Assembly: GCF_900445235.1 (NCBI RefSeq)
Contig: NZ_UFSM01000001.1
Coordinates: 3,983,501-4,047,500 of the forward strand
Direction: 5' to 3'
DNA from: Aminobacter aminovorans
Lineage (GTDB): Bacteria > Pseudomonadota > Alphaproteobacteria > Rhizobiales > Rhizobiaceae
Length of the DNA stretch: 64,000 nt
The notes below the pieces were generated by a model that saw nothing but the letters and a program-made list of their open reading frames with translations, was not told the DNA's origin and did not search any database. The translations under genes were made by a program, and so were the position numbers. Shown here piece after piece: positions 3,713-31,191 of this stretch (positions are counted from its first letter, which is position 1; the number at the start of each line of letters is the position of its first letter).

Positions 3713-6377
3713 TGGTCTTGACATCCAGCACCAGCGAGCCGGCGGTGAACGGATAAGGAGAGCGATGTTCGAGGCAGAGGCGGCTGTCGGTGTCCCAGTC
3801 GCTGGAAACCGACATCATGTCGGCGTCGAAGCTTGTGAACAGCGTGTTTGCCACGATCGGCTTGTCGCCCTTGGTCACGGTCAGCCGGTGCAGGCTGTCG
3901 AAATCGTTACCGACACGCAGGCCGTCCAGCATCGTATCGACCAGATACATGCCGAGCTGCGACACACGTTTTTTCTTGAACAGTGCCGTGCCGTTGGCAG
4001 CCCCATATGCGAGCTTGGTCGACTGCCAGCGTCCGACATAGGGCAGGCCGATCACCACCGCCCTGCCGGCCGGCTGCGGCGGCAGCACCACCTGCCCTGC
4101 GCTGACAGGATAGAGGTTGTCCTGGTCATGCAGGGCCGCACCATCGAGCCAGACGGTGACGCCCTTGCCGTTGAGATGCGGCACGGCAAATGTCGTCTGC
4201 CCCACTGTCGTGACGAAGCGCCTGAAGCCGTCGGCCAGGCAGTTCACCTTGCCGCCGCGGCAATCCTTCAGGTCGGCCAGCCTTTCCAGGCGTTGCGTGC
4301 CGTTACGGAGGACGGCGAAATAGACATTGTCCTGGCCCTTGCCGCGGCAGGCGATGACCTGCCTGAACGCACCGTCGGTGACGACGCGCGACCAGGCGAC
4401 CACCTTCTCCGAGGGGCGATAGGTCAAGGCGCGGGCCTCGCCGTTTTCGAGGATGAACCAAACGACGGTGTCGGGCTGGCGCTGCACGGCCATGCTGACG
4501 ATGGGCGAGCCGCCGCAGACCTCCTCATGCATCGCCATCAGGTCCATGGCGCTGTAGTCCAGCGTGCCCTGCTCGGCGATCAGCGCAAAGACCCTGAGAC
4601 CGGTGCTCTGCACGAAGATGCCGTCCTTGTCGCATTTGACCGCGCGCAGGTCGTAGCTGCCTTGCGTCGAGCCATCGACGGGAAACCAGCTCGACGCCGT
4701 CAGCGGCTCGTCGAAACTCGACGATTTGATCGAGATCTCGGAATTGTCGGTGCCGGCGATGAGGCGCTGCAGGCCGAGCAGCCAGAGGATGCCCCTGTCG
4801 GTGCTGGCGCCGATCGACCGGTAGATCGGCGCGCTGTCGCCCTCGACATTGTCGTTGAAGCTGTGGAAGGCATCGGGCACCGAGCCGTGCACGAAGTCGC
4901 CCTTGCCCCAGTAGAGCCGGCCGCCGAACGCCTCGATGCCCCATGGCCAGCCGTCGAAGTCCGACCAGGTCGAAAAATCCCATTCGAAGGTCGGGCTCAG
5001 CGAATAGAAGCGGCTCAGCACCTCCATCGCGACCACCGTTGCGCTGACGTAGCCGGTCATGCGGGCAATGCCGACCTGGCTGCCGCCGGTGTAGACCAGC
5101 GAGGTGTCGATGGTGCCGCTGGTGAAGGTGACGGCGACGAAGCGGAAGAACTTGACGACGTTGTTGTCGGGGTCGCGGTAGTTGGTCGGGCCGGTGTTTG
5201 CCGTGTAGGTGCTGTGTGTGCTCCAGGCGCCGGGATTGCCGCTGCCGTCATCGGTCGCGACCTCGAGCCGGACCGAACCGGCCCAGGTACCGGAGACCTG
5301 CAAGCTGAAATCGCGCGCCGCATTGACGCCGGAAACACGGATCGACGCACCATTCGCCGGGGCGGCGGTGAAACTCTCCTGCACGGTCTGGCCGGATTGG
5401 AACAGCCGGAACAGGCGGCCGACCATGCTCGCTTCGAAAAGCGGCCGGCTGGCCGTCAGCGTGCCGTTGCCGGTGTAGACGGAAGGGGTCAGCGCCACCG
5501 TGCCGTCGGCTGACACAAAGGGGCCGTCATCGACCTTGTAGCGCTGGATACCCCAGCTGGTGTCGCCGCGGCGCTGGATTTCGCGCTGCTGGAACTGGCG
5601 CGACGCCAGATAAAGCACGTCGATGTTCTGCTTGTGCCTGGGTGCGGCAAGATCGGCCGTCGTCCATGGCGTCGAAATGACAAGCGTTCCCGGCGCGTCG
5701 ATCTGGCAGCGGGCGACCAGCGCCTGGCGCGCCTTGTCGGTGTAGATCTCGAGATGGATGTTGGCGCTGTTGGGCGTGAAGGCGATCGAATGGTCGCCAT
5801 CGTCGAGGATCGACAGCGGCAGGATGTCGCTTGCCCCTGATGACGAGCCGATATGCACCCAGACCGGCCCGCGAACGACCTCGACACGCAGGCCGTGTTC
5901 CTTGCCCAGGTCGCCGCCTGATACGGTGATCGTCTGGCGCGCCGCCGCCCTGCCCTGGGTGGTGCCGGTCAGCACCAGATTGCCGCCCGCGACAGTTGCC
6001 GAGGCGCCGACGGCGCTGGCATTGGTCCAGCCGGTGAAGGAATTGAAGTCGCCATTGACGATCGCGGTCGAGACGGCGACGCGCGAGACGAAGGCATTGT
6101 CCTTCAAAACCCGCATCTCGTTGTTCGACAGGATCGGCACCAGCATCGAGGCGTTCGAACCGGCGAAGGAATATTCGAGCAGCCGTACATCGCCGAGATT
6201 GATGTCGGCGATGTGCTCCAGGCCGGGCCGCAGCGTCATCGAGCCGACGACGCGCGGCAAGATGTTCGAGCTGAGTGCGGACGCGAACTGCATGCGCTCG
6301 AGGTCGAGGCGCGACAGCGCTTCCTCGCCGATCTCGCCGCCATTGACCGAATAGACCGGAGCTGAAACGCGCGGCAT
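3705..6377 (-). CDS. Tail tubular protein B-like (T7 gp12-like)
   Basis: An 890-residue protein starting MPRVSAPVYSVNGGEIGEEA. The opening, with the early NILPRVVGSMTLRPG motif and then LLEYSFAGSNASMLVPI, is characteristic of podoviral tail tube/nozzle proteins that begin with a 'sinnGGe' motif and a 'rpG' segment. The rest is beta-rich with many Gly, Asn and Thr, as in virion tail proteins. Its ATG overlaps the stop of the tail tubular A gene by 1 nt (TGATG), suggesting translational coupling. It should form the lower tail tube and nozzle. The family call is confident; the exact fold is not testable here. Confidence 0.8.
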   Translation of the reverse strand: MPRVSAPVYSVNGGEIGEEALSRLDLERMQFASALSSNILPRVVGSMTLRPGLEHIADINLGDVRLLEYSFAGSNASMLVPILSNNEMRVLKDNAFVSRVAVSTAIVNGDFNSFTGWTNASAVGASATVAGGNLVLTGTTQGRAAARQTITVSGGDLGKEHGLRVEVVRGPVWVHIGSSSGASDILPLSILDDGDHSIAFTPNSANIHLEIYTDKARQALVARCQIDAPGTLVISTPWTTADLAAPRHKQNIDVLYLASRQFQQREIQRRGDTSWGIQRYKVDDGPFVSADGTVALTPSVYTGNGTLTASRPLFEASMVGRLFRLFQSGQTVQESFTAAPANGASIRVSGVNAARDFSLQVSGTWAGSVRLEVATDDGSGNPGAWSTHSTYTANTGPTNYRDPDNNVVKFFRFVAVTFTSGTIDTSLVYTGGSQVGIARMTGYVSATVVAMEVLSRFYSLSPTFEWDFSTWSDFDGWPWGIEAFGGRLYWGKGDFVHGSVPDAFHSFNDNVEGDSAPIYRSIGASTDRGILWLLGLQRLIAGTDNSEISIKSSSFDEPLTASSWFPVDGSTQGSYDLRAVKCDKDGIFVQSTGLRVFALIAEQGTLDYSAMDLMAMHEEVCGGSPIVSMAVQRQPDTVVWFILENGEARALTYRPSEKVVAWSRVVTDGAFRQVIACRGKGQDNVYFAVLRNGTQRLERLADLKDCRGGKVNCLADGFRRFVTTVGQTTFAVPHLNGKGVTVWLDGAALHDQDNLYPVSAGQVVLPPQPAGRAVVIGLPYVGRWQSTKLAYGAANGTALFKKKRVSQLGMYLVDTMLDGLRVGNDFDSLHRLTVTKGDKPIVANTLFTSFDADMMSVSSDWDTDSRLCLEHRSPYPFTAGSLVLDVKTNG

Positions 6378-22426: not shown

Positions 22427-22824
22427 CCCCCTACCCCCGCCCCGCTCCCATCCCAAGCAGTTGCCGCCGCATGCTCGTAAACGCGTTGTCGTCGCGTGGT
22501 TGGTGTTGTCGGCGTCGGGGTGGTGATGGGTGGCGCGCAGGTCGGTCGGGGACAGGCCGAAGGCCTGGCGGAAGGCGCGGCTGAAGACCGAGGCGCTGCC
22601 GAAGCCGCATCTTGTCGCGATGATGCCGACATAAAGATGCGCCTGGGCCGGGTCGGTCAGCGCGTGGTAGCCGCGAGTCAGGCGCCGTTGCTGGATATAT
22701 GCGCCGACGCCGCCGATCGGCTCGAACAGCCGGTAGAGCCCTGGCCCGCGACATGCCGAGCCGCTGGCACAAAAATTCCAGCCCGAGATCGGGCTTGGGC
22801 ACATTCGCCTCGATGAGCCGGCGC
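22427..22824 (-). pseudogene. Truncated AraC-type regulator copy; left direct repeat
   Basis: This stretch repeats, at about 90 per cent identity or more by eye, the 3' end of the intact AraC-type gene at 27137-28210, in the same orientation. It encodes the HTH and C-terminal tail (LFEPIGGVGAYIQQRRLTRG, FSRAFRQAFGLSPTDLRATH) but lacks the N-terminal ~235 residues. It carries frame changes: an extra base near 22740 and a 3-base loss near 22493. With the right copy it brackets the toxin/antitoxin/ATPase islet. Confidence 0.85.
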
Positions 22825-22992
22825 ATTTCCGGCACAACAGGTTTACGACAATATCGGCCCGCGGGTGTTGAGGCCGAAGAAGAAGTAGCGGCAAGGCACC
22901 GACCGCCACGGCCCCGAAAACAGAGTGGGATGCCGGCCCTGCCCGCCGGGCCGGTTTCGGCGCACCATTAGCTCGGCGCCGGGCAACCTTGC

Positions 22993-23571
22993 TCAGTCGC
23001 GCGCCTTCGGCATGAAGCTGAATTGAACCTTGTCGTCCAGGCCTATGGCGACGTGGAGATTGGCCGTGTCCGACACGGCACCAAAAACCATCTGCCTGTG
23101 CCAGGTGGTTCGGCGCGGGCCGGAACCGGCCGCTTCGGTGTGGCTGTATCCGCCTGGCTGGTCGACATCAGGCGGCCCGAAGGCGTGTATGACATCGTCC
23201 AGCGTCTTCAGACCCTGCGTCACCTGCCTCAGCCTTTCCATCTCTTCAAGGCTGACATGCATGAACAGCTCAGGCCTGCGCGAGGCCGGCGCCCGCCCGC
23301 CGCAGGAGATGCAGTGATAGATCATGACCTTTTCCTGGCCCGCGCCGACGATGTGATACTCGTTGAGCTCGGCATCGAAGACGATGGGGATCGACGGCTC
23401 CCGCGAAAGCGCCTCGAGTGTTCCGCACGCACATTCGGCGACATCGGCTGCAAACACCAACTGAACCTCCGTGTGATCGAACATATGGCAGGACGCCCGG
23501 ATGCCTCCCTCTAGCACAACCGGTGCTTGCGGCGGAAGTTCATGGATCGCAGGGGCGTTCTCGCGAAACAC
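22993..23571 (-). CDS. Hypothetical protein with CxxC motif
   Basis: A 192-residue protein (GTG start) MFRENAPAIHELPPQAPVVL; an ATG at 23484 would give 163 residues. The central part KVMIYHCISCGGRAPASRRP contains a CxxC that may bind zinc and resembles the 'HCxxCG..lP.s.r.elf' pattern of small uncharacterised proteins, some of which I recall near immunity-type genes. The ending QMVFGAVSDTANLHVAIGLDDKVQFSFMPK is beta-rich. It lies inside the islet bounded by the AraC direct repeats. Family and function not established. Confidence 0.55.
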   Translation of the reverse strand: MFRENAPAIHELPPQAPVVLEGGIRASCHMFDHTEVQLVFAADVAECACGTLEALSREPSIPIVFDAELNEYHIVGAGQEKVMIYHCISCGGRAPASRRPELFMHVSLEEMERLRQVTQGLKTLDDVIHAFGPPDVDQPGGYSHTEAAGSGPRRTTWHRQMVFGAVSDTANLHVAIGLDDKVQFSFMPKARD

Positions 23572-24025
23572 TTAAGCGGACCCAAAGCGTCGACGGGGTT
23601 GCAACCATCATGACGGTCATGACGGCGCTCGGTCTGCTAGTGGCGGTGTTCCGGCATCATCTTGCGCAAATTGATCAATGCAGTCCTGAAGACGCCACAT
23701 TGCCCGTAGACAGCCAAAAGCGAACGTGGCACTCGACCGCTAAGTGGGGGGAATGCGTCAACAGCGGTCCACACCGAAAGCTCTGCTGGATGAAACCTTA
23801 GTTAATGACAGAGATTTGTAGAGCGAATATTGCGGCCGATGAAATGTCGGCAATGCAACCGTAGGGGCACATTGGAACCCCGTTAGCTGTACGAAGGTCA
23901 TAAAGCAACAGACTGACGGCGAGACGCGTCGACGAATGTATGTCGTGGAGGGAGCATCTCCCAGCCAGCTTTACGCTATCTTCATTCCCGAGAGCCCCAC
24001 ATGTCGAATATTTCCCGTCGTCCGG
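23572..24025. other. Gene-poor stretch inside the islet
   Basis: About 450 nt between the CxxC protein gene and the end of the ATPase gene. A 63-codon plus-strand frame (MTVMTALGLLVAVFRHHLAQ) is present near 23611-23801, but it has no recognisable relative or good ribosome-binding site. The DNA is visibly richer in A and T than the flanks. It could hold remnants of a lost gene; nothing firmer can be supported. Confidence 0.4.
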
Positions 24026-25897
24026 TCAGTGGGACGTATACGCTCTGGCGTCCCTGCTTATCACAGGAGGAACAATAGTGCCCGATTTGAACGCCGCCTC
24101 CATTGCATCGAGATCGGACAGCATCGCTGTTCGTCGTCTAGACAAATAGGTCCAGCAACTGAATATCACGCCCTGTTGAGTCTTATCCCTTGCTGTGTTC
24201 AGGAAATCGAGTGCACGGTTCGTATCGCCAATCACTGCGCTCGCCAACGCCAAGCACTGATAAAAATTTGCATCGACGTCCGAGGGCACTTCGGCAAGCT
24301 CCAGCGCATGCTCGAACAAATCCTCGGGCGGGATGTTGGTGTGGCCCCACTCCGCCATAGCGTAGTTAAAGATATCCGGGATATCTTCAATGGACAGAAC
24401 TTGCGCTCTGTTTGAGCATATGATGTCCATCGCCTTTTGGAACTGACCGCTAGATATCAACGATAGGACCAAATTTGAGCGGAGCTGCCCATGTGTTCCG
24501 GCGGAATTGTCTATCTCCCCGTATGCTCTCTCTAGAAGCCGCGAAGCCAGAGGAACGGCTTTTGCGTCGAATTGAAGCGCACCCGAAATAATGCTGACGT
24601 CCTCCGGCGCAAGATGCTTCAGAAGCGGCGATTCTTCGATGAGGGAAACCCAATCCGAGTCCAACGACTTTAAGGCCTCGATCGCGGATCGTAAGTCCGT
24701 CGGTGTCGTGTCGACGGAACGGAGGACGTTGAGGAGGTCTGTTTTTGCTTCTTCATGACGTGACATGCTTAGGAGTATGAAAGCCCGCTTGAGATGTGCC
24801 TTCTGCACGTCGAATCCAGCGTTGATGGCACCGCCCAGGGCCTCCATTTCATTCGCGAAGTCGCCAAGATGGTTATAGAGCGCGGCCATGAGCCAGCATA
24901 TCTCGCCGTCATGTCTATGTTTCGAGTTAATCCTCTCGAGTTCCGCAGTGATCTCGTCTAGCGGTAAGGAGCGGGCTGTAGCCCCCTTGGGTCCTTTCTT
25001 CGCTCTGCCACGGAATCCAGAAATTACTTTCTGAAGGTATAGTATGGCGCCATCGCGATCATCTACATTTGAGCTCATAAGCTCTTCGGTCAGGTGTCGG
25101 TACTCGGCTGCCAGCTTTGTCTTGGGCCGGTCTATGACAAAAACCTTCTGATCAACCAGCGACATGCTGTTGTAATGTCTAATGGTTGCGGCCGGCTCAT
25201 CATAGCCAAGCTCTCTGCTGGCTTCGTCCAACATAGATCTGAGTATGCCCTCTTCATCGTCTAAGTCCGGAACGTTGGAAGGGCAAAAGAACATCTTGGT
25301 CCGCTTCACATTGACGTGAGCGTCAGAGCGGATTTCGTCCACGATTGTCTTGAGACCAGAAATGTTCTGCTTGTTTGGGAAGAACATGAAGGTGATGGCG
25401 TCCGCGAGCTGACGTGTGCAGATGCCCCCGACGTCGGTATGACCGGTTCTGCTGTCGATCAGGACGTAATCAAAGGCCCTGGTATCGTTTGCGATCTGCT
25501 GCTTCAAGTCTTCGAAAAGCAGGTATCCGCTTCGCGTTTGATACAAGTCCTGCCAGTCGATGGACGAGAGTTTCGTACCGTAATGCTGATCACGTCGTCC
25601 CGCGGGCAAAACCCAGATGGGAAGTGTTTCCGTCTGGGTATCCAACTGCGCCTCCACAATAAAGTCCCTCACATCGGGGGCGGCAGACGTCTCTATATAC
25701 TGCGAAACGTAATCGACTATCCCTACGCGGCTTTCGCTTGCAGTGAACTGCCGGAAGCTAGGAATGCCCGGGGCTTCAAGATCGAAATCGATCACGAGAA
25801 CCTTTCGACCACGCTGCGAAAGCTCGGATGCAACGTTAACGAGGCTCATCGTGCGGCCAACGCCGCCCTTGTAGGAATAGAAAGTGATGACGAACAT
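24026..25897 (-). CDS. KGGVGR-type ParA/MinD-like ATPase with TPR-like C-terminus
   Basis: A 623-residue protein starting MFVITFYSYKGGVGRTMSLV. The deviant Walker A motif is KGGVGRT (residues 10-16), where the usual final Lys is Arg; this marks the KGGVGR clade of SIMIBI ATPases. Walker A' is VLVIDFDLEAPG, and a Walker B-like VLIDSRTGHTDVGG lies near residue 146. The C-terminal ~300 residues are helical repeats of TPR type (ICWLMAALYNHLGDFANEME, FYQCLALASAVIGDTNRALD). The start overlaps the antitoxin stop (TGATG), so it is the coupled third gene of the operon. KGGVGR ATPases are known from bacterial conflict systems. A sensor or switch role here is inference. Confidence 0.8.
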   Translation of the reverse strand: MFVITFYSYKGGVGRTMSLVNVASELSQRGRKVLVIDFDLEAPGIPSFRQFTASESRVGIVDYVSQYIETSAAPDVRDFIVEAQLDTQTETLPIWVLPAGRRDQHYGTKLSSIDWQDLYQTRSGYLLFEDLKQQIANDTRAFDYVLIDSRTGHTDVGGICTRQLADAITFMFFPNKQNISGLKTIVDEIRSDAHVNVKRTKMFFCPSNVPDLDDEEGILRSMLDEASRELGYDEPAATIRHYNSMSLVDQKVFVIDRPKTKLAAEYRHLTEELMSSNVDDRDGAILYLQKVISGFRGRAKKGPKGATARSLPLDEITAELERINSKHRHDGEICWLMAALYNHLGDFANEMEALGGAINAGFDVQKAHLKRAFILLSMSRHEEAKTDLLNVLRSVDTTPTDLRSAIEALKSLDSDWVSLIEESPLLKHLAPEDVSIISGALQFDAKAVPLASRLLERAYGEIDNSAGTHGQLRSNLVLSLISSGQFQKAMDIICSNRAQVLSIEDIPDIFNYAMAEWGHTNIPPEDLFEHALELAEVPSDVDANFYQCLALASAVIGDTNRALDFLNTARDKTQQGVIFSCWTYLSRRRTAMLSDLDAMEAAFKSGTIVPPVISRDARAYTSH

Positions 25898-26406
25898 CAG
25901 GCTGCTTTTTCGAATGTGACAGGAGCCCGGAGTTTGAATACAAGAGACCGCTGGCGCGTTGACTCCGAAAGCTTCGTGCGGAATGTCGGCTGGAATGCCT
26001 CTTTCTTGTTAGCTTCCTGAACAAGGCGAAGGTTATGGGGCATGCGAAGCAACAAAAGAAGATTGTTCGCTGATTCGCCCTGTATCTGATTCCCGAGTTC
26101 CCAACGCTTGATCGAAGCAACACCAAATCCGCTGACGTCCGCGAATTTCTCTTGGGTCAAATGGTAGCTTTCCCGGATCGCCTTAATCTCATGAGGTGTC
26201 AAGCGTCCAAGGTGCCTGCAGACAGCCTCATGGCGAAGTTCCTCTGCCTCGTGGCCAGTGTGCATCTCGCCGCATTCGCCACATTCGTATACCGGAACCA
26301 CAGCTGAGAGCAGGACTTGATCATCGCCGGAACCATAAGCAAATTTCTCCTCATACCAGCGAACCGTGACGGCGTTTGCTTCACAAATTTCACAACGCTG
26401 CATCAT
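25897..26406 (-). CDS. MqsA-like antitoxin (zinc finger + XRE HTH)
   Basis: A 169-residue protein starting MMQRCEICEANAVTVRWYEE. The N-terminal zinc finger uses CEIC (residues 5-8) and CGEC (about 42-45), as in YgiT/MqsA proteins. The HTH follows at about 70-125 (HEIKAIRESYHLTQEKFADV then GVASIKRWELGNQIQGESAN), which is the MqsA-type DNA-binding domain. A ~45-residue basic tail follows, longer than in E. coli MqsA. It lies 14 nt after the toxin candidate gene and is coupled to the ATPase gene. An operator-like ATCATTTGAT overlaps its start codon (26402-26411). It should repress the operon and neutralise the partner. Confidence 0.8.
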   Translation of the reverse strand: MMQRCEICEANAVTVRWYEEKFAYGSGDDQVLLSAVVPVYECGECGEMHTGHEAEELRHEAVCRHLGRLTPHEIKAIRESYHLTQEKFADVSGFGVASIKRWELGNQIQGESANNLLLLLRMPHNLRLVQEANKKEAFQPTFRTKLSESTRQRSLVFKLRAPVTFEKAA

Positions 26407-26420
26407 TTGATCCTTTTCAA

Positions 26421-26786
26421 CTACGAAGTCTGAACATAGCTCTCATGGAAACTGCGTCCGATGACCCGCTCTGCCCCCAATTGAAGCTTGATATAGATAT
26501 GGGAAACTGGGGGGCATCCTGCGACCTTGATGACATACCCAGTCTTCCCGGGAGGCTTCTCGAGCACCACGATCTCAACTTCGCAACCGCCGTTGAGAAG
26601 CTCAGATATGAAATTCCAGGCAGAATCTTCCGTAAAATATTCATCAGGGTCTCTCGGATCGCGCAGAGAGCCAGGCTTCCAATCAGTAGGTTGGTTATAC
26701 GAGAAGATCGCACTTCTGGTGCGCTTGGAGCAGCACCTTGTCGCGAGCATTCGCCTGATGGCGTCACTGATCTCAACCTCTGCCAT
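26421..26786 (-). CDS. Candidate toxin partner of the MqsA-like antitoxin
   Basis: A 121-residue protein starting MAEVEISDAIRRMLATRCCS. It is encoded immediately upstream of the MqsA-like antitoxin, the order seen in mqsRA. The C-terminal half, with EYFTEDSAWNFISELLNGGC and IYIKLQLGAERVIGRSFHES, has the strand pattern of small RelE/MqsR-fold toxins, and the final IYIKL...GRSFHES resembles the VYLKI...IVSFKE end of MqsR, but similarity is weak. I call it a toxin from position and size, not from a confirmed family. Start at 26786 has a weak AGGGTTGG ribosome-binding site. Confidence 0.55.
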   Translation of the reverse strand: MAEVEISDAIRRMLATRCCSKRTRSAIFSYNQPTDWKPGSLRDPRDPDEYFTEDSAWNFISELLNGGCEVEIVVLEKPPGKTGYVIKVAGCPPVSHIYIKLQLGAERVIGRSFHESYVQTS

Positions 26787-26803
26787 TCCAACCCTTAATG
26801 CTG

Positions 26804-26834
26804 GTATCAAATGATACTGAGAGCCCCTTGTCAA
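26804..26834 (-). promoter_or_regulatory. Promoter and operator of the toxin-antitoxin-ATPase operon
   Basis: On the minus strand TTGACA (26829-26834) is followed 18 nt later by TTGATA (26805-26810), a plausible sigma-70 pair. The -10 region lies inside the palindrome GTATCA-AA-TGATAC (26804-26817). This ends 18 nt before the toxin start. Its ATCAAATGAT core occurs again over the antitoxin start. This is how autoregulated antitoxins usually bind. Confidence 0.6.
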
Positions 26835-27133
26835 GAAAAATGATGATGAGCTGAGATCGAAGAGGGCACGCATGTAATGCAAGTCGAATGCTCGATTCCG
26901 ATAGTTTACGCAACAAAATAGCGGCTTGCGGATGATATCAGCTATCGTGGACCGTCAGCATGGCCATGCTCAAGGTGCCCGTCTTTCTTTCTCTCGTCAT
27001 GCAGTAACTGGCCCCTCCTGTGAGGCAACCATCGCGATCTTCAGCTTAAAGGCCTGGCGATCGCCCAAGACCACCATTCGAATTGGCGAGGCAAGATCGG
27101 CTTGCTCCCTAGACGCCCCACCCCATCCACGCG

Positions 27134-27530
27134 CCCCTACCCCCGCCCCGCCCCCATCCCGAGCAACTGCCGCCGCATGCTGGTAAACGCGTTGTCGTCG
27201 GCGTGGTTGGTGTTGTCGGCGTCGGGGTGGTGATGGGTGGCGCGCAGGTCGGTCGGGGACAGGCCGAAGGCCTGGCGGAAGGCGCGGCTGAAGACCGAGG
27301 CGTTGCCGAAGCCGCATCTTGCGGCAATGACGCCGACATAGACATGAGCCTGGGCCGGGTCGGTCAGCGCGTGGTAGGCGCGCGTCAGGCGCCGCTGCTG
27401 GATATATGCGCCGACGCCGCCGATCGGCTCGAACAGCCGGTAGAGCTTGGCCCGCGACATGCCGAGCCGCTGGCACAAAAATTCCGGCCCGAGATCGGGC
27501 TCGGGCACATTCGCCTCGATGAGCCGGCGC
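27134..27530. repeat. Right direct repeat (3' end of intact AraC-type gene)
   Basis: This is the right-hand copy of the ~400-bp repeat described at 22427-22824. Here it is the intact 3' end of the AraC-type gene. Similarity begins at CCCCTACCCCCGCC on the left and ends sharply after GATGAGCCGGCGC on the right. The 4.3-kb interval between the two copies carries the islet. Confidence 0.85.
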
Positions 27531-28210: not shown

Positions 28211-28389
28211 TGGCGTGCTCCCTCTCCATCCCTTGATGCAAGCGTAGAGCGGCCTTTGCGGGCGCGCAAGCCGGGCCCGGCTTTGCCTGGCGTCTCATTT
28301 TCTCGACCTGTCGTCTCAATCCCGTTGCCCGCCCTTGCAGCCCCGGCGGCCAACGCAAATTGTCCGGCAGGTTTCAGCGGGGGCGGCGG

Positions 28390-31191
28390 ATGGACAAGAC
28401 CAGGACGGCAGGCGTGCGGACCGACCTCGCCCGGTTGTCGCGGGCTGCCCTGTCCGACGGTTGCAGCGCCGGCCCGACTTGCCGGATTGACCCGACTTGC
28501 CGGATTGACCCGACTGGCCGGCTTGAAAGGATTCATCGGCCTCAGCCTGTGCTGACCCAGGGCGTGTGTCTCGCTTTTCTCCTTGTCGCAGCGACAGCGC
28601 TGTCCCCCGCCCCGGCCAGCGCGGGCGGCGGCGAGGGCGGAAACTTCAACACGCCAGGCGGTGCCGACAGCGCCACCGGCACCGGCGGCAATGGCGGCAA
28701 CGGACCGGGCGGCGTCGGCGGTGGCGGTGGTGGTGGTGGCGCCGGTGCCGTGGGTGGCAACGGTGGCAATGGCAGAGCCGGTCTTGGCGGCGCGGGCGGC
28801 GCCGGCGGGCCGTCGGCCGGAGCGGATGGCGGCAACGGTGTATCAGACCCAGGCTGGGACGGTACCGGCGGCGGCGGCGGCGGCGCCCATGGCTTTGTCG
28901 GCATAAGCCTTCCCCTCGCCGTCTCTACCGGCGGCGACGGCGGCAATGGCGGCGCGGGCGGCAACGGTGTCAGCTCTGGCGGCGGCGGCGGCGCCGGCGG
29001 GTTCGGTGCGGTGGCAACCGGCTCGGGCGATCTCGGCACGCTTGGCGTGGCGCAAACAGGCGGTCGTGGCGGCAATGGCGGCTCCGCCTTTGTCGGCGGC
29101 AGCGGCGGCACCGGCGGCACCGGGCTGCTGCTGACCAATCTCGGCGGGGTCATGATCACCATCGACACCACTGTTACAGGCGGCGATGGCGGCGCTCGCG
29201 GCGGCGGCATTGGCGGACCGCTGCCCGGTCTGGGCGGCGCGGGCCTGGTCGGCGGCAATCTGACCGTCATCAATCGCGGCGTCATATCAGGCGGGCTCAG
29301 CGGCGACGGCGGCACCCGGGCCGAGGCCATCGTCTTCACCGGCGGCAACAATGTGCTTACCCTGGCCAATGCGACATCGGGGATCACCGGCCGGATCTCG
29401 GTCACCGGCGCGCTGACCTTCGACCAGGCGACGGGCTCGACCCTCGACCAGGCCATATCAGGCAGCGGATCGGTGGCAAAATCAGGCATCGCCACGCTGA
29501 TACTGACGGCCACAAGCTCCTATACGGGTGCGACCACCGTCAATGAAGGCACGCTTGTTGTCGACGGCTCGATCGCCGCGTCGTCGCTGACCACGGTCGA
29601 AAGCGGCGGCATTCTGGGCGGCACCGGTTTTGTCGGCGCCACCAGCATCAAGGCAGGCGGCATCTTTGCGCCCGGCCGCGGCCTGCCTGCTACGTCGATG
29701 ACCCTGTCCAGCCTGACGATGGAGCCGGGCGCCTATTATGCGGTGGTCCTCGATCCCGGCGCTTCGTCCTCCGCCACCGTCAGCGGCAACGCCTCGCTCG
29801 CCGGCGCAACAGTCGCTCCGCTTTTTGCCAGCGGCACCTATGTCGCCAGGCAATACACGATCCTGACCGCCGGCAGCATCACCGGCACGTTCAACCCCAC
29901 CACCGTCGACAGCAACCTGCCGTCGGGCTTCCACACCACGCTGAGCTACGACGCCACGCGCGCCTATCTCGATCTCGAGCTGAACTTCGTGCCGCCGTCA
30001 GGGACCGGGTTTTCCAGCAACCAGCGAAACGTCGGCGACGCCATCGTCGCTTATTTCGACAGAACCGGCAGCATCCCGATGGTGTTTGGCGCCCTGACGC
30101 CGGCCGGATTGACGCAGCTTTCCGGCGAGGCCGCCACCGGCGCGCAGCAGGCGACATTTTATGCCATGGACCAGTTCCTCGGCGTGCTCACCGACCCGTT
30201 CGTCGCCGGGCGCAGCGCACCGGCCGGCGAAGCCGGCACCAATTCTGGTGGTCTCGCCTATGCCAAGGATGGCAAGGGTGCAGCCGATGCGGCCCTGACG
30301 GCCATCACATCGCCCGACAGGACGTTGCCCGGCAAGAGCCAGCCTGCCGACCGGCCTTGGCGCGCATGGGCAGCCGGCTATGGCGGCTCGCAATCAAGTG
30401 ACGGCAACGCCGCCACCGGGTCCAGCGATCTCAGCACCAGGCTCTATGGCGTTGCCGTCGGCGCCGACTATCGCCTGTCGCCCGACACCGTTTTGGGCTT
30501 TGCGCTCGCCGGCGGCGGCACCAGCTTCAGCGTCGCAGGCCTCGGCAGCGGCAGCGGCGATCTGTTCCAGGCCGGCGCCTTCTTCCGCCACGATGCCGGG
30601 CCCGCCTATATGACCGGCGCACTGGCTTATGGCCGCCAGGACATCACCACCGACAGGTTCGTGACGATCTCCGGCACCGACCACCTGCGCGCCCGATATG
30701 ACGCCAATGCCTGGTCCGGACGCCTCGAAGGCGGCTTGCGCCTCGACGCCGGCGGCATCGGCATGACACCTTACGCGGCCGGCCAGTTCACCAGCTTCGA
30801 CATGCCGGCTTATGCCGAGCAGGCGATTGCAGGCGCAGACATGTTCGCCCTGTCCTACGACGGCAAGCGCCTCACCGACAGCCGCACCGAACTCGGCCTG
30901 CGCCTCGACAAATCCTTTGCCATGGCCGAGGCCGTGGTGACGTTGCGCGGGCGCCTTGCCTGGGCCCATCATTTGGATCCCGAGCGCAGCCTGTCCGCGA
31001 CCTTCCAGACGCTGCCCGGCGCCACTTTCATCGTCAATGGCGCTGCCATGGCGCGCGACACGGCGCTGGTCGGCGCTGCGGTCGAGACAAGATGGCAAAA
31101 CGGCTGGTCGGCGACGGCAGGCTTCGAAGGCGAATTCTCCGACGTGACACGGTCCTATTCAGGCAAGGGCGTGCTGCGTTACGCCTGGTGA
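28390..31191 (+). CDS. Autotransporter with glycine-rich passenger
   Basis: A 933-residue frame from ATG 28390. The hydrophobic core of a signal peptide (CLAFLLVAATALSPAPASA) lies at residues ~60-79, so the true start may be the GTG at 28549 instead; earlier residues would be an unusually long leader. The passenger opens with ~230 residues dominated by GGNGG/GGGGGA runs, then autotransporter beta-strand repeats (TLILTATSSYTGATTVNEGT, then LVVDGSIAASSLTTVESGGI). The C-terminal ~260 residues form the autotransporter barrel, ending RYAW. It should be exported and displayed on the outer membrane. A divergent AraC gene is the likely regulator. Confidence 0.85.
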   Translation: MDKTRTAGVRTDLARLSRAALSDGCSAGPTCRIDPTCRIDPTGRLERIHRPQPVLTQGVCLAFLLVAATALSPAPASAGGGEGGNFNTPGGADSATGTGGNGGNGPGGVGGGGGGGGAGAVGGNGGNGRAGLGGAGGAGGPSAGADGGNGVSDPGWDGTGGGGGGAHGFVGISLPLAVSTGGDGGNGGAGGNGVSSGGGGGAGGFGAVATGSGDLGTLGVAQTGGRGGNGGSAFVGGSGGTGGTGLLLTNLGGVMITIDTTVTGGDGGARGGGIGGPLPGLGGAGLVGGNLTVINRGVISGGLSGDGGTRAEAIVFTGGNNVLTLANATSGITGRISVTGALTFDQATGSTLDQAISGSGSVAKSGIATLILTATSSYTGATTVNEGTLVVDGSIAASSLTTVESGGILGGTGFVGATSIKAGGIFAPGRGLPATSMTLSSLTMEPGAYYAVVLDPGASSSATVSGNASLAGATVAPLFASGTYVARQYTILTAGSITGTFNPTTVDSNLPSGFHTTLSYDATRAYLDLELNFVPPSGTGFSSNQRNVGDAIVAYFDRTGSIPMVFGALTPAGLTQLSGEAATGAQQATFYAMDQFLGVLTDPFVAGRSAPAGEAGTNSGGLAYAKDGKGAADAALTAITSPDRTLPGKSQPADRPWRAWAAGYGGSQSSDGNAATGSSDLSTRLYGVAVGADYRLSPDTVLGFALAGGGTSFSVAGLGSGSGDLFQAGAFFRHDAGPAYMTGALAYGRQDITTDRFVTISGTDHLRARYDANAWSGRLEGGLRLDAGGIGMTPYAAGQFTSFDMPAYAEQAIAGADMFALSYDGKRLTDSRTELGLRLDKSFAMAEAVVTLRGRLAWAHHLDPERSLSATFQTLPGATFIVNGAAMARDTALVGAAVETRWQNGWSATAGFEGEFSDVTRSYSGKGVLRYAW
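28473..28526. repeat. Tandem repeat, 3 x 18 nt
   Basis: Unit CCCGACTTGCCGGATTGA occurs twice exactly and a third time as CCCGACTGGCCGGCTTGA. If the autotransporter starts at 28390 or earlier, the array encodes PTCRID-PTCRID-PTGRLE just before the signal peptide core; if it starts at 28549 the array is in the leader. Confidence 0.85.

Follow-up and report, generated by a model that had tools for sequence, protein, structure and literature searches.

A three-gene operon of Aminobacter aminovorans joining an MqsA-family antitoxin and a predicted MqsR-fold protein to a KGGVGR ATPase: a candidate tripartite toxin-antitoxin system

Introduction

It is established that an addiction module can develop into phage immunity by way of a tripartite toxin-antitoxin system. 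Toxin-antitoxin-chaperone (TAC) systems such as MqsRAC use SecB-like chaperones, and MqsRAC itself combines a toxin and a C-terminally extended antitoxin with a SecB-like helper, oversupply of which blocks phage protection (PMC9519451, in excerpt). Here we describe an operon of three genes, all on the minus strand of a 64,000-nucleotide (nt) stretch of Aminobacter aminovorans DNA (contig NZ_UFSM01000001.1, positions 3,983,501 to 4,047,500; hereafter the window), which encode a toxin candidate, an MqsA-family antitoxin and a KGGVGR-type ATPase. The operon resembles TAC systems (MqsRAC, HigBAC, CmdTAC) in the order toxin, antitoxin, third factor, in the C-terminal extension of the antitoxin and in its mobile or virus-like context, and MqsRAC in particular in pairing an MqsA-family antitoxin with a predicted MqsR-type toxin fold, but in place of a SecB-like chaperone it has, as its third protein, a KGGVGR MinD/ParA ATPase that carries TPR-like repeats. 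A preliminary description of this DNA had stated that MqsA antitoxins normally sit in two-gene units, which needs the qualifier that MqsRAC, with its SecB-like third gene, is known (PMC9519451, in excerpt).

Several other described systems share part of this anatomy. The two-gene MqsRA modules have the same toxin-first order, an MqsA-family antitoxin and, according to our prediction, the same toxin fold; they differ in that the toxin described here falls below every MqsR sequence threshold, in the tail of the antitoxin and in the third gene. No KGGVGR ATPase was found within about 1.5 kb of 32 MqsR-positive loci (30 distinct places), the sole pattern match lying in a stop-filled frame. Residues 4-236 of the ATPase match PDC-M28B of PADLOC (2.1e-34), the TPR-like half being outside this match, and the PDC-M28 models match neither the toxin and antitoxin of the window, nor the antitoxins of loci L020, L048 and L058, nor the small protein of L058. 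At locus L008 the second product of the pair that precedes a full-length ATPase matches PDC-M06B of PADLOC (1.6e-33), but this antitoxin is unrelated, and a relative on an E. coli plasmid has no adjoining ATPase. FleN/FlhG and other MinD-type ATPases control a DNA-binding regulator, but they are not known to belong to a toxin-antitoxin unit. Finally, PtuXYZ is a three-gene unit combining a RelE-superfamily domain with a P-loop ATPase, but this ATPase is PtuA-like, and the system has a nuclease and, in the excerpted account, no MqsA (PMC11980606). In the open-access literature we found neither a description of an MqsA-type pair combined with a KGGVGR ATPase, although a paper elsewhere is possible, nor the names KGGVGR and PDC-M28; the impression of the preliminary description that no such three-part system had been described thus stands for that literature. 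Tripartite toxin-antitoxin systems and KGGVGR ATPases are each known, their combination appears to be new as far as we could find, and the operon would appear to be a switchable system of growth arrest or phage defence of a kind not yet described.

A Recurrent Three-Gene Unit

The operon and its parts are as follows:

26421..26786, minus strand: toxin candidate of 121 amino acids, with its ATG at 26786 and its stop at 26421-26423; predicted MqsR/RelE-type fold
25897..26406, minus strand: MqsA-family antitoxin and putative repressor of 169 amino acids, with a CxxC/CxxC N-terminus, a helix-turn-helix (HTH) and a C-terminal tail
25900..26085, minus strand: C-terminal segment of the antitoxin, its last 62 residues, holding the tail motif FRT...R...FKLR
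24026..25897, minus strand: KGGVGR-type MinD/ParA-fold ATPase of 623 amino acids, with C-terminal TPR-like helices
25037..25897, minus strand: N-terminal nucleotide-binding domain of the ATPase, residues 1-287
24083..24961, minus strand: TPR-like helical region of the ATPase, residues 313-605

The coordinates confirm the operon architecture and the coupling of the genes noted in the preliminary description: toxin and antitoxin genes are separated by 14 nt, and the TGA of the antitoxin overlaps the ATG of the ATPase as TGATG. The search for relatives started from the ATPase, was blind to its neighbours and retained one genome per species; the survey covered the best 80 of at least 576 confirmed ATPase relatives, the top of a larger set, and a locus was called MqsA-linked when our own antitoxin hidden Markov model (HMM) scored above 80 bits in the 1.7 kb upstream of the ATPase. 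Within this survey an MqsA-like antitoxin lies upstream in 47 of the 80 loci, its end falling anywhere from 10 nt within the ATPase match to 37 nt short of it. All 33 loci whose match spans at least 560 query residues are linked, as are 12 of 13 with an intermediate span (the exception being L062), and only 2 of the 34 weakest, N-terminal matches (L065-L098). The preliminary description had held that an ATPase standing mostly beside unrelated genes would speak against a joint system; this is not the case for relatives matching over most of their length (33/33), and it is the case for the wider KGGVGR family, as seen among the weakest matches (2/34). As an independent check, the 47 linked antitoxins and that of the window all match TIGR03830 at E 1e-3 or better (48/48). 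Six of seven further loci, from plasmids and other genomes and including the window, are also linked.

In 41 of the 53 linked loci, an open reading frame (ORF) assigned to the toxin family by our own HMM (E <1e-3) stands ahead of the antitoxin; the frame is weak or short in six of them (L030, L037, L044, L049, L052, L055). The toxin slot is filled by different small proteins, similar in size, in the verrucomicrobial-type loci L056-L061 and in the planctomycete loci L026, L029 and L039. According to record titles, the hosts include Alpha-, Beta-, Gamma- and former Deltaproteobacteria, Acidobacteriota, Planctomycetota, Gemmatimonadota, Bacteroidota and others. The co-occurrence check suggested at the outset thus found the trio together across many phyla. 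In a tree of the ATPase domain (n=87), one supported clade (98/97) has 45 of its 46 rows MqsA-linked, and the link label changes 4 times on the tree, versus 27.2 times in shuffles. Among 1029 ORFs flanking the 53 loci, families present in at least three loci come only from the trio L031, L036 and L045, which share 12 flank families (one also in L041). That the three genes form a co-functional unit is, in our view, nearly certain.

Sampling from the side of the toxin gave a concordant picture with one exception. In an order-level sample the toxin was found in 3/397 genomes (the window's own, G286 and G051), with the ATPase adjoining in all three, and in a phylum-level sample also in 3/397 (the window's own, G600 and G470); only some first-look candidates were scored per genome (up to 11 at phylum level, 3 at order level), so that misses are possible. 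Four plasmid records carry the toxin, all with the ATPase; two of them are near-alike Rhizobium phaseoli plasmids, and the contig of G600 is the same Massilia plasmid as found among these records. G051 (locus L005) was considered as a two-gene version and ruled out, since its ATPase was found downstream. In G470 (L142:2569-3438), the gene after the toxin and MqsA genes encodes a P-type ATPase (copper-type by eye), and no KGGVGR ATPase follows; the end motif of the tail is missing from its antitoxin, and just ahead of its toxin gene there is an operator core. This one case hints, and no more, at joint loss of the tail end motif and the ATPase.

The converse arrangement is seen on a Polymorphobacter plasmid (L008:7091-9842), where a full-length ATPase, nested within the MqsA-linked clade, stands behind a 76-residue protein (HicA-like by eye, no significant Pfam match) and the PDC-M06B-type protein instead of the toxin and MqsA. 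This appears to be a swap of the toxin-antitoxin pair.

The Antitoxin and Its C-Terminal Tail

The second protein was rightly called MqsA-like in the preliminary description, as it lies above the cut-offs of both PF15731 (36.5 vs 30 bits) and TIGR03830 (67.8 vs 61.8). Linked antitoxins continue after the HTH for a median of 69 residues (58-90), versus 26, 26 and 36 in three ordinary MqsA proteins, and the strict pattern F-x-[LIV]-[RKTQYH] stands near the end of 32 of 53 linked antitoxins versus none of 20 ordinary MqsA proteins drawn from PF15723-positive loci. The tail is under purifying selection, with a ratio of non-synonymous to synonymous substitution rates (dN/dS) of 0.15 between the window and L012 and of 0.19 between the window and L006; for the antitoxin, the window-L012 comparison gives 0.07. 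The idea that the unrelated antitoxin of L008 shares the same tail was dropped as unsupported: it has FDLR near its end, but 156 of 2000 shuffles score as high with the tail HMM (built from 44 of the 53 tails, without L056-L061, L063, L065 and L091). Several verrucomicrobial-type tails (L056-L061) share an NPA motif.

A Candidate Operator

Two palindromic elements accompany the genes:

26804..26817, no strand: palindromic operator candidate GTATCATTTGATAC with core ATCATTTGAT; ATCAWWTGAT is found upstream in 28 of 53 linked loci
26402..26411, no strand: second copy of the operator core, ATCAAATGAT, lying across the start codon of the antitoxin gene

Between the palindrome GTATCATTTGATAC and the toxin ATG lie 17 nt, and a 16-nt form of the palindrome occurs once in the window at up to 3 mismatches (0.07 expected). 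Within 220 bp upstream of the toxin, ATCAWWTGAT is present in 28 of 53 linked loci, where 0.15 would be expected from the rest of those loci; as the motif was chosen after a palindrome scan of the same loci this count is no independent test, though the excess is about 190-fold. It occurs in 26 of 41 loci with a family toxin and in 2 of 12 others, and 34 unlinked loci lack it in the 1200 bp preceding the ATPase. The second core is found at the antitoxin start in the window, L012, L006 and L007. Upstream palindromes in general are not significant (12/41 at p 0.05 or less, mean p 0.37). Of the single promoter with a palindromic operator proposed in the preliminary description, the operator is supported by the recurrence of the motif in relatives; the promoter is unconfirmed, a sigma-70 consensus scan upstream having found none (shuffles mean 2.3), with other promoter types outside the scan.

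The ATPase

The third protein scores far above the cut-off of NF047398, 'KGGVGR-motif variant AAA ATPase' (182.7 vs 90 bits), and its N-terminal domain has a MinD/ParA-type fold in which K10, G11, G12, G14, R15, D37, D39 and D148 are invariant (n=35). The TPR-like character of the C-terminal half shows in the family profile, which matches many TPR structures, and in the predicted model, which is nearly all helical there; Pfam's own TPR models remain below cut-off. Both the KGGVGR P-loop and the TPR-like repeats read earlier from the sequence therefore hold. No SecB model is among the Pfam and NCBIfam matches of the protein at E 1. In the comparison of the window with L012, its ratio of non-synonymous to synonymous differences (pN/pS) is 0.22, with synonymous sites saturated.

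The Toxin Candidate

The 121-residue protein has no match in Pfam, NCBIfam, PADLOC or PHROGs. Its predicted structure has the MqsR fold, whereas RelE, HigB and YoeB structures reach a Z of only about 3-5 against the model; the fold comparison with RelE and MqsR that had been called for thus points to MqsR. With neither a Pfam match nor higher Z scores, DUF4258 and plain RelE were rejected as identities, and weak matches of the toxin profile to the CRISPR-associated structure 8y7f (E 0.31) and of one family member to other Protein Data Bank chains (best E 0.027) were treated as noise. Residues Y98, K100 and S112-F113-H114 are invariant across the alignment (n=35). The catalytic residues of MqsR are Tyr81 and Lys56 (PMC9636575, in excerpt), and Y98 aligns with the tyrosine of the MqsR YxK motif in a profile comparison of 20 columns (probability 8). 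The gene is constrained (dN/dS 0.11, window-L012). The four plasmid records carrying it list no feature there, their gene table being incomplete, which suggests that the gene may often be missed in annotation. The protein is a candidate MqsR-fold RNase-type toxin, and very probably the first two genes are a toxin-antitoxin pair.

Mobile and Virus-Like Context

The full-length ATPase is present in five plasmid records and on four IMG/VR contigs, where the antitoxin accompanies it in 4/4 and the toxin in 3/4; it is absent from phage genome records. Tyrosine recombinases lie near L012, L008 and L009. On the viral contigs, PHROGs identifies phage-type genes: portal, terminase, scaffold and major head on L137, a tail protein on L138, an integrase on L135 and an endolysin on L136. 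Between the cassette and the portal gene of L137, the one ORF of at least 200 residues encodes a DNA methyltransferase. In P2-like phages of E. coli a hotspot of defence genes adjoins gpQ (PMC9122126, in excerpt); gpA, the other hotspot border, was not seen on L137. A PADLOC scan of 129 randomly drawn ORFs out of 191 eligible flank ORFs (180-1000 amino acids, 39 loci, without the window, near-duplicates and the further loci from plasmids and other genomes) gave defence-type matches including class II pAgo, HmaB, DndB and SoFic, but control ORFs matched PADLOC models too. An anti-phage role for the operon seems probable to us.

Proposed Mechanism and Alternatives

The unit and its operator recur, the antitoxin carries a tail, the toxin candidate has an MqsR-like predicted fold, the genes are under purifying selection, and the contexts are mobile or virus-like. 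The nearest precedent is MqsRAC, and the best explanation is on balance one in which its SecB is replaced by the KGGVGR ATPase-TPR protein: a tripartite toxin-antitoxin system in which the ATPase guards the antitoxin via its tail and stress releases the toxin. The MqsA-type protein would neutralise the MqsR-fold RNase-type toxin and repress the operon at ATCAWWTGAT sites. The nucleotide-binding MinD/ParA-type ATPase with its TPR-like repeats would bind the C-terminal tail and keep the antitoxin competent, as SecB does in MqsRAC; infection or another stress would occupy, remove or switch the ATPase, upon which the antitoxin would fail and the toxin would stop growth. Toxicity, binding of the tail by the ATPase, nucleotide switching and phage as the trigger are the steps that we infer here, and guarding through the tail, taken by itself, is a tentative proposal to which we give slightly less than even weight.

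A number of observations weigh against this explanation. As regards the toxin, Foldseek alone places MqsR at rank five (E 0.24), none of 35 toxin relatives matches PF15723 (MqsR) at E 1, the profile comparison with MqsR mentioned above is short and of low probability, and a clear counterpart of the MqsR-essential Lys56 is not evident in the family. As regards the tail, the strict end pattern is absent in 21 of 53 linked antitoxins, and 6 of 20 ordinary MqsA proteins are 162-201 amino acids long and thus also have some extension, so that length alone cannot separate the two sets. MinD/ParA-like domains of other conflict systems are predicted to be inactive, which speaks against a nucleotide switch (PMC7159879, in excerpt). 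The G470 pair indicates that the ATPase is not always present, and on viral contig L135 (near 5050-5480) the toxin frame has an internal stop, with antitoxin and ATPase open. Note also that both the toxin HMM and the antitoxin HMM derive from the very loci to which they were applied, with a search range of only about 1.7 kb upstream of each ATPase, that many loci are metagenome bins, whose single host names may be wrong, and that 98 control ORFs from the window's own genome also matched PADLOC, so that the flank scan did not discriminate.

The same anatomy would also fit an ATPase that acts as the trigger, sensing infection, binding the tail and stripping, sequestering or handing over the antitoxin, and so releasing the toxin. 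The MinD/ParA-type fold of the domain agrees with this, and survival of the G470 pair without the ATPase is easier to understand if the antitoxin works alone; against it, the third protein protects in the described TAC systems (PMC9519451, in excerpt). The results fit either direction of action, guardian or trigger; we regard a trigger role as unlikely. A poorer candidate, which we consider improbable, is that the 121-residue protein is a co-regulator with an RNase-like fold that together with MqsA regulates the ATPase, the latter being the real effector. That no toxin model matches this protein, that the first gene of L135 is interrupted by a stop while antitoxin and ATPase are open, and that the ATPase is by far the largest product would all suit such an arrangement, but the MqsR-like predicted fold adjoins an MqsA, the first gene is constrained, and similar-sized small proteins fill its slot in planctomycete and verrucomicrobial-type copies. 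The notion that the ATPase serves mobile elements in partition or stability, as ParA-like proteins do, and merely shares the transcript of an addiction module, draws on its ParA/MinD fold, the match of its N-terminal half to the PHROGs family 'ParA-like partition protein' (phrog_164, 2.1e-15) and its presence on plasmids, but is very improbable given a score far under the cut-off of the ParA partition model NF041546 (35.9 vs 180 bits), the long TPR-like extension, the invariant arginine where the P-loop lysine is expected, the location of most linked loci on contigs titled genome assemblies and not plasmids, and the want of a recurrent fourth gene such as ParB.

If the ATPase does guard the antitoxin, third-protein control of antitoxins has also evolved from an unrelated machine, a MinD/ParA-type ATPase, and KGGVGR ATPases would gain a role. 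With three genes, a recurrent operator and a defined tail, the system is compact enough for asking how infection releases a toxin. Mainly because of the pair swap at L008, it is also possible, and somewhat more doubtful than guarding itself, that the KGGVGR ATPase-TPR protein is a portable control module, reading a C-terminal tag of the antitoxin, licensing it in a nucleotide-dependent manner and plugged into different pairs: MqsR-like/MqsA in this operon, MqsA with different small proteins in planctomycete and verrucomicrobial-type loci, and the PDC-M06-like pair in Polymorphobacter. Such a module would do with a ParA/MinD-type protein what SecB does in TAC systems, and would couple phage sensing to toxin release in a new way.

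Genomic Surroundings and Related Gene Sets

In the window the operon is flanked by repeats of about 400 bp of the end of an AraC-family gene:

22428..22824, no strand: left direct repeat, a partial copy of the 3' end of the AraC-family gene
27134..27530, no strand: right direct repeat, the 3' end of the intact AraC-family gene
22825..27133, no strand: inter-repeat stretch holding the operon, low in GC from about 23500 on

Pieces D1, D2 and D5 of the left repeat are 96, 98 and 93% identical to the right copy. Most of the stretch between the repeats is low in GC, at 0.51-0.54 in 1-kb segments within 23500-26999 and 0.59-0.72 in segments outside; its leftmost part is not low. A 192-residue ORF between the same repeats (22993-23571) has a weak DUF6980 match below cut-off, and no recurring flank family around the operon includes it. 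Beside the island, 28360-31191 encodes a 943-residue glycine-rich autotransporter (PF03797, 2e-48).

Other gene sets with ParA-type or KGG-type ATPases were also seen. On viral contig L140 (1651-5529), P2-like by eye, a ParA-type protein and a below-cut-off NACHT protein lie near an apparent portal gene. At L010:4324-8671 and L062:900-5584 a KGG-type ATPase has two genes nearby, one HTH-like and one matching a carbon-nitrogen hydrolase below cut-off; this is possibly another recurrent set. On viral contig L139 (3934-9288) three genes stand in a row, encoding a caspase-domain protein (PF00656, 5e-17), an unknown protein and a KGGVGR ATPase; this is a different KGGVGR system.

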